Source: Ahniella affigens
Lineage (GTDB): Bacteria; Pseudomonadota; Gammaproteobacteria; Xanthomonadales; Ahniellaceae
Assembly (NCBI RefSeq): GCF_003015185.1
Contig: NZ_CP027860.1
Span: 4,268,501-4,332,500 of the forward strand
Length of the DNA: 64,000 bases
Direction: 5' to 3'
Part shown: in pieces, positions 6,742-55,706 of the stretch
Layout of the letters: each line of letters starts with the position of its first letter
Position numbering within the stretch: the first letter of the stretch is position 1
Program-made: the position numbers and the translations under genes
The notes under the pieces: model-generated
What the model was told of the DNA's origin: nothing
Databases searched by the model: none
The model's input: the letters and a program-made list of their open reading frames with translations, nothing else

Positions 6742-7080
6742 GAGATTCGGTCCTGCATCGAAAGTGTCTGGGGAGACTCGGAACAAGTTCGGAGTCGACG
6801 CGGGCCATCGCTGGCCCTTGCAGAAGCAAGCCGATCGGCGCTTGATTCTGGGACTGAGTGCCGACCTGCGCCGGACCCAATGCGAGTCTGAGCGTTCAGA
6901 TTGAACGGGTTCGGACTTGCCGTAGTTTATCGCCCTCCCCGCACCGGGGCGAGCCAGCTGAAACAACTGCCCGACTGTGGGCATGAAACGCCGACCTGGA
7001 CCTGTCGAAAGTCATCCAATCGGGGCGTGTCCCTGGCGCCGCACAGACGCCATAATCGGGCACCACACCAAGGACTGACC
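6742..7080. other. Divergent intergenic region between purC and the amidohydrolase gene
   Basis: About 340 bp without a supportable gene. It must hold the purC promoter (minus) and the promoter of the secreted amidohydrolase (plus). A purine-repressor (PurR) box was looked for by eye and not recognised. In-frame extensions of both flanking genes run into this region but show no conserved residues. Confidence 0.5.
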
Positions 7081-20895: not shown

Positions 20896-21240
20896 TCAGT
20901 CGCTATTGCCGCCACTCGCGGCACTACCGCCAGTCGAACCGCCCGCACTCGAACTGCTGGTACTCGAACTGCCCGCACTAGAACTACCGGCACCCGAGTC
21001 GCCACTGCTGCCACCTGAGCCGCCGCTGTCGCCCGCCAGGTTGCGCTTCTTGTCGCCGCTCTTCTTGAAGTCTGTCTCGTACCACCCGCTACCCGCCAGT
21101 CGAAACGACGGCGCGGTGACGCGGCGCTGGATGGGGCCCTGATGACAGCGCTCGCACTGCGTCGGATCCGGATCCGACAGTTTTTGGAGGTGGTCAAACA
21201 CGTGACCGCAGGTTTGGCATTCGTACTCGTAGATCGGCAT
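20896..21240 (-). CDS. FmdB-family zinc ribbon protein with serine/glycine tail
   Basis: A 114-residue protein. The first about 60 residues are the FmdB zinc ribbon: PIYEYECQTCGHVFDHLQK, then CERCHQG, giving two CxxC zinc-binding pairs (Cys8/Cys11 and Cys29/Cys32), followed by RRVTAPSFRLAGSGWYETDF, the conserved post-ribbon block. From about residue 65 the chain is a low-complexity Ser/Gly tail (GSGGSSGDSGAGSSSAGSSS), the feature for which this family was named CxxC_CxxC_SSSS. The family's role is unclear; a regulatory or nucleic-acid role has been proposed. In many proteobacteria it precedes aspS, but here its downstream neighbour is gdhB. Confidence 0.88.
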   Translation of the reverse strand: MPIYEYECQTCGHVFDHLQKLSDPDPTQCERCHQGPIQRRVTAPSFRLAGSGWYETDFKKSGDKKRNLAGDSGGSGGSSGDSGAGSSSAGSSSTSSSSAGGSTGGSAASGGNSD

Positions 21241-21317: not shown

Positions 21318-21789
21318 GCGCGCCATGGATGGCGCGCCCGCAGATCAAACGCGTCAGCGGTTGAGCCGGCGGGAGCGAGTCCGGGCATGTACCGGACTCG
21401 CGACTTGAAAAGCGCTCAGGATGAGCGGTTTTCAAAGGCAAACCACTGGCGCGCCCGCGGATCAAACGCGTCAGCGGTTGAGCCGGCGGGAGCGAGTCCG
21501 GGCATGTACCGGACTCGCGACTTGAAAAGCGCTCAGGATGAGCGGTTTTCAAAGGCAAACCACTGGCGCACCCGCGGATCAAACGCGTCAGCGGTTGAGC
21601 TGGCGGGAGCGAGTCCGGGCATGTACCGGACTCGCGACTTGAAAAACGCTCAGGATGAGCGGTTTTCAAAGGCAAACCACTGGCGCGCCCGCGGATCAAA
21701 CGCGTCAGCGGTTGAGCCGGCGGGAGCGAGTCCGGGCATGTAACGGACTTCCGACTTGAAAAGCGCTCAGGATGAGCGGTTTTCAAAGG
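21318..21789. repeat. Array of four 117-bp hairpin repeats (family A)
   Basis: Four head-to-tail copies begin GATCAAACGCGTCAGCGG at 21343, 21460, 21577 and 21694, an exact period of 117 bp. The internal copies differ by only one or two bases. Each carries two hairpins. The first is GAGTCCGG/CCGGACTC around a 7-nt loop containing CATGT. The second pairs TTGAAAA and CGCTCA with TGAGCG and TTTTCAA around GGA. The array is led by a 9-bp perfect hairpin, GCGCGCCAT/ATGGCGCGC, at 21318-21337. The last copy is degenerate in the first hairpin. It fills the space between fmdB and rpoH on the minus strand. Because 117 is divisible by three, frames stay open through the array on both strands, but the resulting 39-residue peptide repeats look artefactual. 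Confidence 0.92.
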
Positions 21790-21859: not shown

Positions 21860-22735
21860 TCAGGCCGCGATCAGCAATCCCTTGATCTTCTTGAACGCGT
21901 TCGCCTCGATCTGGCGGATGCGTTCGGCCGAGACTTTGTACTCGTCGGCCAGTTCTTGCAACGTGGCGGTCTTCTCGATCAGCCAGCGCCGCGTCACGAT
22001 GTCACGCGAGCGGGCGTCCAGACCGGCCAGACCTTCACGCAGCGCATCCAGCTGATGCCCGCTGGAGTCGTCCAGCTCCAATGCATCGGCGGGGCTGGCA
22101 TGGTCGTCGATCAGATACGCCACCGGCGAGGGCCTGGCATCGTCATCACTGTCGGTCGGGGCGTCAAAAGCTAAGTCATGACCATTCAGCCGGGCTTCCA
22201 TCTCGCGGACTTCGGCCGGTTCAACGTTCAGCTCGCGGGCAACGGTGTTGACTTCTTCATTGTTCATCCAGCCCAGGCGCTTTTTCGACTTCCTGAGATT
22301 GAAGAACAGCTTGCGCTGGGCCTTGGTCGTTGCGACCTTGACGATGCGCCAGTTCTTCAGGATGAACTCATGCATTTCGGCCTTGATCCAATGCACAGCA
22401 AAGCTCACCAACCGCACGCCCTGGTCGGGATCGAAGCGCTTGACCGCTTTCATCAGGCCGATGTTGCCTTCCTGAATCAGGTCGGCCATGCCAAGACCGT
22501 AACCTTGGTAGCCGCGGGCCACATGCACGACGAAGCGCAGATGCGAGAGAATCATGCGCTTGGCCGCATCCAGATCGTTGTCCTGGCGGACTTTCTGGGC
22601 CAGTTCGAACTCTTCTTCGCCCGCCAGCATCGGCACGCGATTGACCGCGCTGATGTAGGCGTCGAGCGAGCCGAGGGCACTCGGCACCAGCCAGTTCTGA
22701 TTGAAATTTTGGTTTAAAGCCAAAGCTTGAGTCAT
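21860..22735 (-). CDS. rpoH: RNA polymerase heat-shock sigma factor RpoH (sigma-32)
   Basis: A 291-residue sigma-70 family factor that directs RNA polymerase to heat-shock promoters. Region 2 is visible ([39 protein letters not shown] and [20 protein letters not shown]). The RpoH box diagnostic for this sigma subtype reads [18 protein letters not shown]. The C-terminus is region 4 ([20 protein letters not shown]). The start at 22735 is preferred over 22831 because AAGGAGGGG lies just upstream and the next residues (TQALALNQN) match the usual RpoH N-terminus. It follows terC by 92 bp; the leader carries hairpins described separately, and a strong terminator follows the gene. Confidence 0.96.
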
Positions 22736-25428: not shown

Positions 25429-25541
25429 GGGCCTGAATAAGGCCATCCTGGACTTTCAGACCCGCAACGAGTCCGGCACGTGTCCGGACTCGTTGCTCCA
25501 GAATCAAGCACTTCCGTGCTCGACTCTGGGCGGGCCTGCCA
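25429..25541. repeat. Single copy of the 127-bp hairpin repeat (family B)
   Basis: Same element as the array at 30549-30930. It has an outer hairpin ending TCAGACC, a 13-bp hairpin GCAACGAGTCCGG/CCGGACTCGTTGC around CACGTGT, then the CAGAATC/AGCAC hairpin. Relative to the array, the 13-bp stem has two substitutions on the 5' side that are each matched on the 3' side, so pairing is kept. It lies between the convergent FHA and def genes, where it could also serve as a transcription barrier. Confidence 0.9.
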
Positions 25542-30488: not shown

Positions 30489-30548
30489 AGTCGGCTCAGC
30501 TTTGGTTCGAGAAGAAGGCGCGGAGGGTAGCAGGCAGACAGTTATGAC

Positions 30549-30930
30549 GGGTCTGAATAAGTCCATCCTGGACTTTCAGACCCGCACTGAGTCCGGCACA
30601 TGTCCGGACTCAGTGCTCCAGAATCAAGCACTTCCGTGCTCGATTCTGGGCGGGCCATCCATGGCCAGTATTTGCTGGTCTGAATAAGTCCATCCTGGAC
30701 TTTCAGACCCGCAATGAGTCCGGCACATGTCCGGACTCAGTGCTCCAGAATCAAGCACTTCCGCGCTCGATTCTGGGCGGGCCATCCATGGCCAGTATTT
30801 GCTGGTCTGAAGAAGTCCATCCTGGACTTTCAGACCCGCACTGAGTCCGGCACATGTCCGGACTCAGTGCTCCAGAATCAAGCACTTCCGTGCTCGATTC
30901 TGGGCGGGCCATCCATGGCCCGCATCGCCT
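30549..30930. repeat. Array of three 127-bp hairpin repeats (family B)
   Basis: Three near-identical copies begin GGTCTGAA at 30550, 30677 and 30804, an exact period of 127 bp. Each copy folds into at least three hairpins. The first is GGTCTGA/TCAGACC continuing into AAGTCC/GGACTT. The second is a 13-bp stem, GCACTGAGTCCGG/CCGGACTCAGTGC, with loop CACATGT. The third is CAGAATC plus AGCAC with GTGCT plus GATTCTG around TTCC. The last copy ends in a perfect 9-bp hairpin, GCGGGCCAT/ATGGCCCGC (30904-30923). The second copy carries a one-sided change (GCAATGAG) that breaks one pair. The array fills the gap between the sensor kinase and the glutaredoxin fusion gene; a fourth copy is at 25429. Confidence 0.93.
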
Positions 30931-30948
30931 CTGAACGTGGTCAGAGGC
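30927..30948. other. Perfect 8-bp hairpin just after the sensor kinase stop
   Basis: GCCTCTGA (30927-30934) pairs with TCAGAGGC (30941-30948) around ACGTGG. It begins 3 bp beyond the end of the sensor kinase gene on the minus strand and abuts the family B array. No T-run follows, so together with the array it may act as a 3' end stabiliser or a weak terminator. Confidence 0.5.
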
Positions 30949-30951
30949 TCC

Positions 30952-31977
30952 TTATGGATCTGGCATGAGCGGCAGGCGGAGCGTCACGCGATAGTGATCG
31001 CCCTGATCAACAGCCAGGAGTTCGGCGCGCTCGGCATAGCGAAGCCGCAGGCGATCGCGGATATTGCCGAGCGCCACATGATTGCCCCGACTGAGCGCCG
31101 GGTTCAGGCCTTGGCGCGGTTTGGGGTTCAATACCGTGATCAATAAAGACCCCGCTGTCTGGCGCGCTTCGACGTGCACTTGACCGCCCTCGGCGAGCGC
31201 CTGAATCCCATGATGAATCGCGTTTTCAACCAAGGGTTGCAGACACAGCTGCGGCACGAGGGTCTGCTCCAGTTCATGGGGCAGGTCGAGCACGATGGCG
31301 AGGCGCGGGCCAAGGCGCAGCTGCTCGATTTCCAAATATCGCCGCGTCAGCGCAAACTCCTCGGCCAGCGGCCACTCCTTGGTTTCTGGTGCCAGCGCCG
31401 CCCGAAACAAGTCGGCGAGGTCGAGAATCGCTTGTTCTGCCTGCCGCGGTGCGATTTCAATCAGACTGGCCGCCGTGTTCAGGGTATTGAACAAGAAGTG
31501 CGGCCGGATACGCGCATGCAAGGCATCGAGTTGCGCCCGCGCTTGCGCAGCCACCTGGCGCTTCCAGCGTTCCTGCACGAAGAAGTAGCGCATGACCACG
31601 ATTCCGGTCAGCAGACTCAACAGCGCGAGACCCAACACGAATTGCGGCAACGACGTGGCCGGCGACAGCAGATGCAGGTTCAGACTGTGATCGAGCTTGC
31701 CCAACATCGTGCCACCGAAAATCGCAATCAGGACCGGAATCAGCAAGGCCAGAGCGATGCTCAGCGTTTGCCGAAGGTGCGCCAGCAGCGGACCGAGCTT
31801 GCACAGCAGTACAGCACTCAACAGTGCGATCCATTGCGCGGCAAAACTGGCGGCCAGGAATTCCTGCAACCGGGGCAGCACGCGTGCCTGATCGGGCGCG
31901 ATGACGATGACGGCCACCACGAGTTCGACGATCAAAATCAGGCTGGCAAGCACCGGCACCGAACAGAAGTCCGGCAT
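30952..31977 (-). CDS. LytS/AlgZ-type membrane sensor histidine kinase
   Basis: A 341-residue inner-membrane histidine kinase of the His_kinase (LytS/YehU/AlgZ) family. The N-terminal half has four or more membrane helices (for example VLASLILIVELVVAVIVIA and LGLALLSLLTGIVVMRYFF). The kinase core has the phospho-acceptor His160 in ARIRPHFLFNTLNT and the N-box LCLQPLVENAIHHGI. The opening MPDFC resembles AlgZ/FimS proteins, which pair with the LytTR regulator AlgR in alginate and pilus control. The usual LytTR partner is not adjacent: the array follows downstream. The ATG at 31977 (GGAG 4 nt upstream) is chosen over a TTG at 32037, which would overlap the upstream esterase gene. Confidence 0.83.
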   Translation of the reverse strand: MPDFCSVPVLASLILIVELVVAVIVIAPDQARVLPRLQEFLAASFAAQWIALLSAVLLCKLGPLLAHLRQTLSIALALLIPVLIAIFGGTMLGKLDHSLNLHLLSPATSLPQFVLGLALLSLLTGIVVMRYFFVQERWKRQVAAQARAQLDALHARIRPHFLFNTLNTAASLIEIAPRQAEQAILDLADLFRAALAPETKEWPLAEEFALTRRYLEIEQLRLGPRLAIVLDLPHELEQTLVPQLCLQPLVENAIHHGIQALAEGGQVHVEARQTAGSLLITVLNPKPRQGLNPALSRGNHVALGNIRDRLRLRYAERAELLAVDQGDHYRVTLRLPLMPDP

Positions 31978-55499: not shown

Positions 55500-55706
55500 G
55501 CCTTCGGGCCCGAAACGAATTTGCCGCATCACCGTTCGCTGTTTGTAGGAGGGCCTTCAGGCCCGAACCAAGCTTGCCGCATCGCCGTTCGCGGCTGAAG
55601 CCGCTCCCACAAAAACCATCGCTCCCACAAAAACCGCTGCTCCTACAAAAACCGCTGCTCCTACAAAACCGCTGCTCCTACAAAAACCGCTGCTCCTACA
55701 AGAACT
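55500..55706. repeat. REP-like palindromes followed by an 18-bp minisatellite
   Basis: Two imperfect copies of a 45-bp unit start CCTTCGGGCCCGAA at 55501 and CCTTCAGGCCCGAA at 55554; each contains a GGGCC/GGCCC hairpin and the run TTGCCGCATC. The second continues into GCGGCTGAAGCCGC, a REP-type inverted repeat. Then about six tandem units of GCTCCTACAAAAACCGCT (17-19 bp, positions 55602-55706) follow; the first two read CCCACA instead of CCTACA and one unit has lost an A. The whole 359-bp gap between the DUF2069 gene and ppk holds no supportable gene. Confidence 0.8.

Follow-up and report, generated by a model that had tools for sequence, protein, structure and literature searches.

The four 117-bp repeats between rpoH and an fmdB-family gene of Ahniella affigens are best explained, with a probability of roughly 0.8, as the tandem inner module (four hairpins, HP1–HP4) of a non-autonomous MITE, the intact relatives of which appear to owe their movement to a common IS5-type transposase, while the array itself, in the window analysed here (the whole 64,000-nt stretch of DNA), would be an immobile relic of a B-type lineage. 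In the intact relatives, one module or several in a row are enclosed between two ends: the left end is a terminal inverted repeat that doubles as the HP1 outer arm, and the right end is a fifth hairpin that closes with the matching repeat. These elements lie within a 4-bp duplication, mostly YTAR. The 127-bp (A-type) elements, multi-unit forms included, would be moved in trans by the IS5 transposase; because YTAR contains TAA or TAG, some insertions would fall precisely at a stop codon and many directly after a gene, a position in which they may be tolerated. The 117-type array belongs to a second, B-type lineage, whose ends in other genomes resemble those of a different IS5-family transposon in one such genome, and, having neither ends nor duplication, would gain or lose units through replication slippage or local recombination.

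Tandem Repeats Finder placed a 117-bp period (3.9 copies, 97% matches) at positions 21330–21789, between the gene for an FmdB-family zinc ribbon (20896–21240, minus strand; TIGR02605) and rpoH (21860–22723, minus strand; TIGR02392), in agreement with the first-pass annotation, which had seen four copies between these genes; the array lies 3′ of rpoH, in sense. Relative to copy 2, copies 1–4 differ at 1, 0, 3 and 10 of 117 bases, and the final bases of copy 4 merge into the flank. A covariance model of the unit (R1) recovered all four units on the minus strand, at 21321–21437 (113 bits), 21441–21554 (95 bits), 21558–21671 (90 bits) and 21675–21788 (74.8 bits; the unit with a damaged core hairpin), with HP1–HP4 running 5′ to 3′ on that strand. 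In unit 1, the sole unit of the array with a complete HP4, the hairpins are HP4 at the outer end of the array (21318–21337; GCGCGCCAT-GG-ATGGCGCGC), HP3 (21338–21372, from the fold), HP2, which is the core shared with the 127-bp family (21375–21401; GCGAGTCCGG-GCATGTA-CCGGACTCGC, from the fold and the core count), and HP1 (21405–21435; loop AGGAT on the plus strand and ATCCT on the minus strand). The unit at 21443–21565 folds far better than its dinucleotide shuffles (z = −7.5 on the plus and −5.5 on the minus strand), with none of 200 shuffles equally good.

The hairpin core that the first-pass annotation had noticed in both families recurs genome-wide: the genome (6.12 Mb) contains 124 instances of AGTCCGG-N(3–14)-CCGGACT and none of a reversed-pattern control. 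The 9-bp stem ending in CCAT/ATGG that had been described as bordering both families is also real, being HP4 (21318–21337 in the 117-bp array and 30906–30921, GGGCCAT-CC-ATGGCCC, in the last unit of the 127-type array in the window). The flanking modules, by contrast, are not different, as had been thought, but homologous once the strand is taken into account: on the minus strand, the 117-bp unit matches the 127-bp unit over its whole length, with four hairpins in identical order (HP1, with a loop around TCC; HP2, with the GAGTCCGG core; HP3, with a loop that is often TTGC or TTAC; and HP4, CCATCCATGG) and with compensatory changes between them. HP4 is retained in every unit of the 127-bp array, whereas among the 117-bp units in the window only the one at the end of the array has it complete. 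Double changes were found in 13 of 31 pairs in an alignment of 14 units, and a structure-blind MAFFT alignment of 21 units (18 of them from 17 other genomes, the remaining 3 from this one) had 94% of cells pairing and both-side changes in 23 of the 31 pairs; shuffles of this alignment averaged 78.5% pairing and 11.1 such pairs, and none of 500 attained the observed values. Sliding one partner by one to three columns reduced pairing to at most 43.2%, a comparison that somewhat favours the unslid version, as the structure was taken from one alignment row.

A tree of the core (HP1 excluded; 39 of 53 rows, after 14 near-copies were dropped; bootstrap not settled) placed the window 117-bp unit in a 16-row fork (12 B, 3 C and 1 A2; support 91/93), closest to the other B-type units of this genome, and the 127-bp units within a fork of 5 A rows from this genome and genome G003 (90/91). 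Alignment, covariation and tree support the proposal that the 117-bp and 127-bp families form one superfamily of composite intergenic elements; the core is present in many other repeats, and the distributions of the two families are not unrelated. R1 had at least 150 matches in the genome, and the matches listed group into 117 loci, of which 103 hold a single unit and 14 an array of 2–5 units, in line with the tandem amplification that the first-pass annotation had also proposed.

Evidence for transposition comes from the A-type elements, whose boundaries, set by aligning loci with their flanks, enclose 152 bp in single copies and 152 + 127n bp in multi-unit copies. The left end reads YTAR-GGAGGGTCTGAA and the right end is a fifth hairpin, GCCTCTGAACTTGTTCAGAGGCTCC-YTAR; among the 101 of 117 own-genome loci covered by the end analysis, both terminal inverted repeats (GGAGGGTCTGAA and GGAGCCTCTGAA) were recognisable in 81. 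An exact 4-bp duplication, mostly YTAR, flanks 52 of these 81 loci (permutation of right ends: mean 12.6, maximum 25 in 20,000) and three of four positions agree in 22 more; exact duplication is absent in 29, including 3 of 8 arrays. The alternative that the flanks are palindromic, with the left being the reverse complement of the right, fits 18 of the 81 loci, and we consider pairs that are equal yet depart from the consensus (CTTT, AAAG and TTTG) to be the most telling sign of target duplication. Six-frame translation of one 152-bp copy confirmed that the element is too short to encode a transposase.

The window itself holds a complete A-type MITE of three tandem units (406 bp; 30546–30951, plus strand; GACGGGTCTGAA... 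to ...CAGAGGCTCC), which lies outside the 81 loci because its left end is imperfect (GACG). It is flanked by TTAT at 30542–30545 and at 30952–30955, and the right copy, read as ATAA on the minus strand, holds the TAA stop of the downstream minus-strand gene (30952–31977). Besides the arrays, two more units are present in the window: a single A-type unit lacking the right end (25430–25540, plus strand; R1 106 bits) and a degenerate A-type unit (6803–6917, minus strand; R1 60.8 bits) followed by a degenerate right-end hairpin. An 18-bp tandem array (GCTCCTACAAAAACCGCT, 5.8 copies; 55603–55705) in the window is unrelated to either family.

Some variants were seen elsewhere in the genome. A 28-bp palindrome at G000:C1:1228198–1228233 consists of two A-type ends alone, with YTAR on both sides, and adjoins a three-unit array; for the exact pattern tried, it is the only such minimal palindrome in the genome. 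Twelve units are at least 130 bp long (at G000:C1:72707, 1082001, 2293849, 4070269, 5121838 and 5234286, and six more), and all 6 sequences examined among them carry an extra GC-rich hairpin, CCCCGGCGAAGGCCGGGG, in the HP2 loop.

We identified a candidate helper in the same genome. A DDE_Tnp_1 search returned 15 matches, 13 of which share one 344-aa DDE frame within a 1,223-bp element that has GGAGGGTCTGAACAAGTC at both ends and is present in 13 near-identical copies (99.8–100% identical; L164–L176). The transposase was assigned to the IS5 family (NF033581 of NCBIfam, 325 bits against a cut-off of 140). All 14 copies with these ends (the 13 and a 1,213-bp copy, L177) lie within exact 4-bp duplications (CTAG, CTAA, TTAG and once CTTA), and the fifteenth match (L178) is without the ends. 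That 13 near-identical copies all lie within exact duplications is a sign of recent activity. A-type elements and the resident IS5 thus share the same ends and the same 4-bp YTAR target duplication, which makes the resident element the likely source of transposase for the A-type elements, presumably acting in trans. With inverted repeats, a target duplication, an autonomous relative with the same ends and a length too short for a transposase, the 127-bp family is an IS5-group MITE.

Multi-unit A-type elements are most likely to descend from a multi-unit ancestor and to move as such. All ten 127-type arrays have the same 10-bp linker, AGTATTTGCY, between units, and this linker was found near none of 87 single copies; single copies amplifying independently would hardly have yielded one linker, which argues for the multi-unit ancestor. 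The 127-type elements contain 1–5 units between the same fixed ends, and exact duplications flank 5 of the 8 arrays with both ends, as well as the three-unit array of the window. Units are slightly more alike within than between arrays (96.2% versus 94.5% identity in nine of the ten 127-type arrays), which suggests some local homogenisation. Linkers of about this length but different sequence separate the units of the 117-type arrays, and TTTGC or TTTG occurs in several of them.

On counts that depend on a home-made gene caller, 2 of the 100 loci examined fall within a called gene, and the remainder lie between tandem (48), convergent (31) or divergent (12) genes or have a gene called on one side only (7). 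An element edge falls right at a gene's 3′ end in 16 of 103 cases and at a 5′ end in 0 of 67, and edges at 3′ ends fit a YTAR target whose TAA or TAG is a stop codon.

For the B-type lineage, units similar to those of the window array occur at six more loci of this genome (L063–L068; L068 only a fragment). No end was seen at any of them, and the A-type right end was absent in the five that entered the end scan. B-type ends were found in other genomes, reading CTAG-CA...TGTTGAGAAA on one side and ...TTTCTCAACAGCCTG-CTAG on the other. The window array yielded neither an end nor a right-end hairpin nor a target duplication, and beyond HP4 (21318–21337) no terminal inverted repeat was seen; its transposon origin is accordingly drawn from homology, and we infer an immobile relic from the missing ends and target duplication. 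The nearest relatives of the neighbouring RpoH were MAGs (one labelled Lysobacterales) and Rudaea; a scan of 12 out of 80 RpoH relatives for an ancestral array gave matches only in L087 (best 18.5 bits, E = 0.024, behind rpoH), and FmdB searches next to rpoH found nothing in the four nearest relatives examined, so no empty site can be demonstrated for the array. We file the array, by homology, as an end-less relic that is probably immobile and has been kept as a tandem array. Elsewhere in the genome, two RNA genes are followed in sense by B-type units, the SRP RNA gene at a distance of about 19 nt (L063:1394–1742) and the RNase P RNA gene at about 109 nt (L067:1042–1618).

Beyond this genome, R1 matches were found within the order in 32 of 200 genomes (28 of 158 when only good ones are counted; 22 of 69 genera), in 5 of 10 genomes of the family and in 24 of 369 genomes sampled from the class, each count including this genome; 22 of the 24 lie outside the order. 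The matches listed span the whole model, with several copies in many genomes, and copy number is erratic, with at least 150 here versus 0–23 among family members. In the other genomes, exact 4-bp duplications flank 36 of 68 elements with definable ends (72 entered; permutation mean 13.6, maximum 25 in 20,000), where the expected ends were set per genome by eye from aligned copies, with two offsets allowed in G145, and where L191, L197, L319, L322 and L327 (no exact duplication visible) and L314–L317 were left out of the 72. In G014, G024 and G188, 0 of 12 definable elements had an exact duplication.

Several types of end were observed across genomes (GGAAGGTCTGAA, CAGGCTGTTGAGAAA, GGCAACACTGAA and GAGTTTGTGA), and local IS5 elements matched the ends of local elements to varying degrees. 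The match was good in G011, where the ends of an IS5-family IS (CACGCTGTTGAGAA/CAGGTTGTTGAGAA; CTAG duplication) resemble those of that genome's elements, partial in G115, G055 and G524, and limited to one side in G021. The ends of the abundant IS5 in G459 are unlike those of the local element L319, and an IS in G163 (L263/L329) with perfect 14-bp ends (GATTCTGTTGAAAA), GGCC flanks and a 472-aa DDE frame has ends unlike those of the local elements. For several genomes, either no IS5 transposase was found (PF01609, 7 of 10; PF05598, 7 of 15) or no ends could be set. When end types were mapped onto the core tree (36 rows, labelled by hand, with the B rows of this genome labelled by HP1 alone), 6 changes were counted with A and A2 merged and 8 with four labels (minimum 3; shuffled mean 16.1); in AU tests, one clade each was not rejected for A with A2 (P = 0.059), B (P = 0.088) or C (P = 0.42). 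These patterns suggest that ends may have been exchanged between cores. BLASTN searches of plasmids and phages returned no A-type match, and of plasmids no B-type match, in collections from which records near this genome may be absent. It is possible, though we hold this only tentatively, that the superfamily is a class-wide modular parasite, with one structure-kept core spread by several IS5-family transposons via end exchange and twice amplified in tandem, once as mobile multi-unit A-type elements and once as end-less B-type arrays.

Other origins for the array were weighed against descent from an IS5-moved MITE. Palindromic, intergenic and high in copy number, the repeats could be REP- or BIME-like elements spread by a REP-associated tyrosine transposase (RAYT), as the first-pass annotation had asked, and the genome has three Y1-type transposase genes; yet the surroundings of these genes contain no proper unit (one 26-bit match, about 1.2 kb from one of the three), no tag is fixed (GTAG in 4 of 53 units, at no position common to two, and CGTC in 30 of the 53, with at most 9 at any one position), and the elements have IS5-group inverted repeats and 4-bp duplications that are matched by 13 IS copies. 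A RAYT/REP origin was dropped on the Y1 surroundings and tag counts, and we regard it as very improbable. Scarcely credible is a locus-specific satellite without mobile ancestry that resembles the 127-bp family by chance or convergence: the window array does lack ends and duplication, but the end-to-end alignment with covariation between the families, the ends of B-type elements in other genomes and the related units at six further loci of this genome (one a fragment) all speak against it.

The conservation of the hairpins, as distinct from their origin, permits other explanations. What the MITE carries in its module could be a structured RNA or a cis RNA element, conserved as such, for example as a decoy for CsrA/RsmA, which are GGA-binding proteins. 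The hairpins are conserved with strong covariation, TCC (GGA on the other strand) occurs in both the HP1 and HP4 loops in 31 of 40 units, and five of the six full B-type loci here (those at rpoH and at the SRP RNA and RNase P RNA genes, with L064 and L065) directly follow a gene or RNA gene in the sense orientation, as does the fragment L068 (L066 does not), although B-type loci are too few for weight to be put on orientation. Over all 31 model pairs in 53 rows, G·T exceeds A·C (55 versus 24), but through two loop-closing pairs, which hold 30 of the 55; without these, G·T is about as frequent as A·C (22 versus 17, in the 40 of 53 rows left after near-copies were dropped), and the 21-row alignment less one loop-closing pair gives a similar balance (12 versus 15), whereas an RNA read from one strand should favour G·U. 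This absence of strand bias inside stems does not favour RNA; A-type copies, moreover, have no orientation preference (26 sense and 22 antisense), and no Rfam family was matched by the window at gathering scores, or by the array and one B-type element at an E-value threshold beyond weak rsmX, Leu leader and mir-7386 hits below gathering scores, so that we consider an RNA role improbable. The strand balance fits a DNA-level cause, whether cruciform or single-strand binding or replication-based palindrome correction. In quasi-palindrome correction, one arm is copied onto the other, producing compensatory changes, and hairpins might thus be kept perfect by mutation during replication and not by selection, in keeping with mismatches that lack strand bias within stems; this would leave the conserved loops, arm sequence, hairpin order and near-constant length across the class unexplained, and the TCC kept in the HP1 and HP4 loops is hard to explain by correction alone. 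We think it rather doubtful that correction accounts for the hairpins.

Several known elements invite comparison with the IS5-moved MITE proposed here. ERIC, RIME, Correia and Nezha are MITE-like palindromic intergenic elements, many of about 100–150 bp; they were set beside the unit by description, and the unit matched no Rfam family. In kind, the A-type element is a known one, a MITE with internal tandem modules like pneumococcal BOX. According to the portion of the report drawn on here, BOX of Streptococcus pneumoniae is a composite, folded intergenic MITE with variable internal tandem boxB modules between fixed ends, which are said to resemble a resident IS (the proposed helper being ISSpn2), and S. 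suis has the same boxB flanked by either of two different pairs of ends, A/C or E/F (PMC3049150). The A-type element likewise has fixed ends around variable tandem modules, a likeness of description and not of sequence; as far as that portion of the BOX report goes, it differs in that the helper is an IS5-group IS, the module is a whole four-hairpin unit found class-wide and there is also a tandem form without ends. MITEPsy1 of Pseudomonas syringae, also compared by description, is a small IS5-type MITE (100 nt) with ends like those of ISPsy2, inserts at CTAG or YTAA with a 4-nt duplication and has been observed to transpose; unlike for the A-type, the parts of its report used here mention no multi-hairpin core or tandem modules (PMC3189936). 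QMITE1 of Coxiella burnetii is said, in the excerpted account, to have variable ends and a conserved core, resembling the superfamily by description, although its variation is among insertions in one species' genome (PMC5896051). REPs, as summarised in extracts from one source, are 20–40-bp palindromes with a GTAG or CGTC tag, the GTAG ones being linked to RAYT, and are likewise short, palindromic, intergenic, clustered and sometimes tandem (PMC3733652), whereas the element here has 152 bp, five hairpins, inverted repeats and a target duplication. No match to the superfamily was present in the sections used of a 2024 review of prokaryotic MITEs (PMC10969869), and the papers searched, mostly outside subscription journals, contained no description of it. 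What is new is the breadth of the conserved core, the differing ends and the mobile multi-unit forms.

Together, these results unite scattered repeats of many gammaproteobacterial genomes into one structurally conserved superfamily and provide a testable case of a MITE core that is retained while ends differ between hosts. Stop codons within the YTAR target offer a reason for the position of repeats behind genes. Were the superfamily indeed a modular parasite, a host or transposon factor would bind the conserved loops, and arrays would be multi-site binding platforms. Finally, variable-number arrays, such as the one next to rpoH, could be tried for strain typing.
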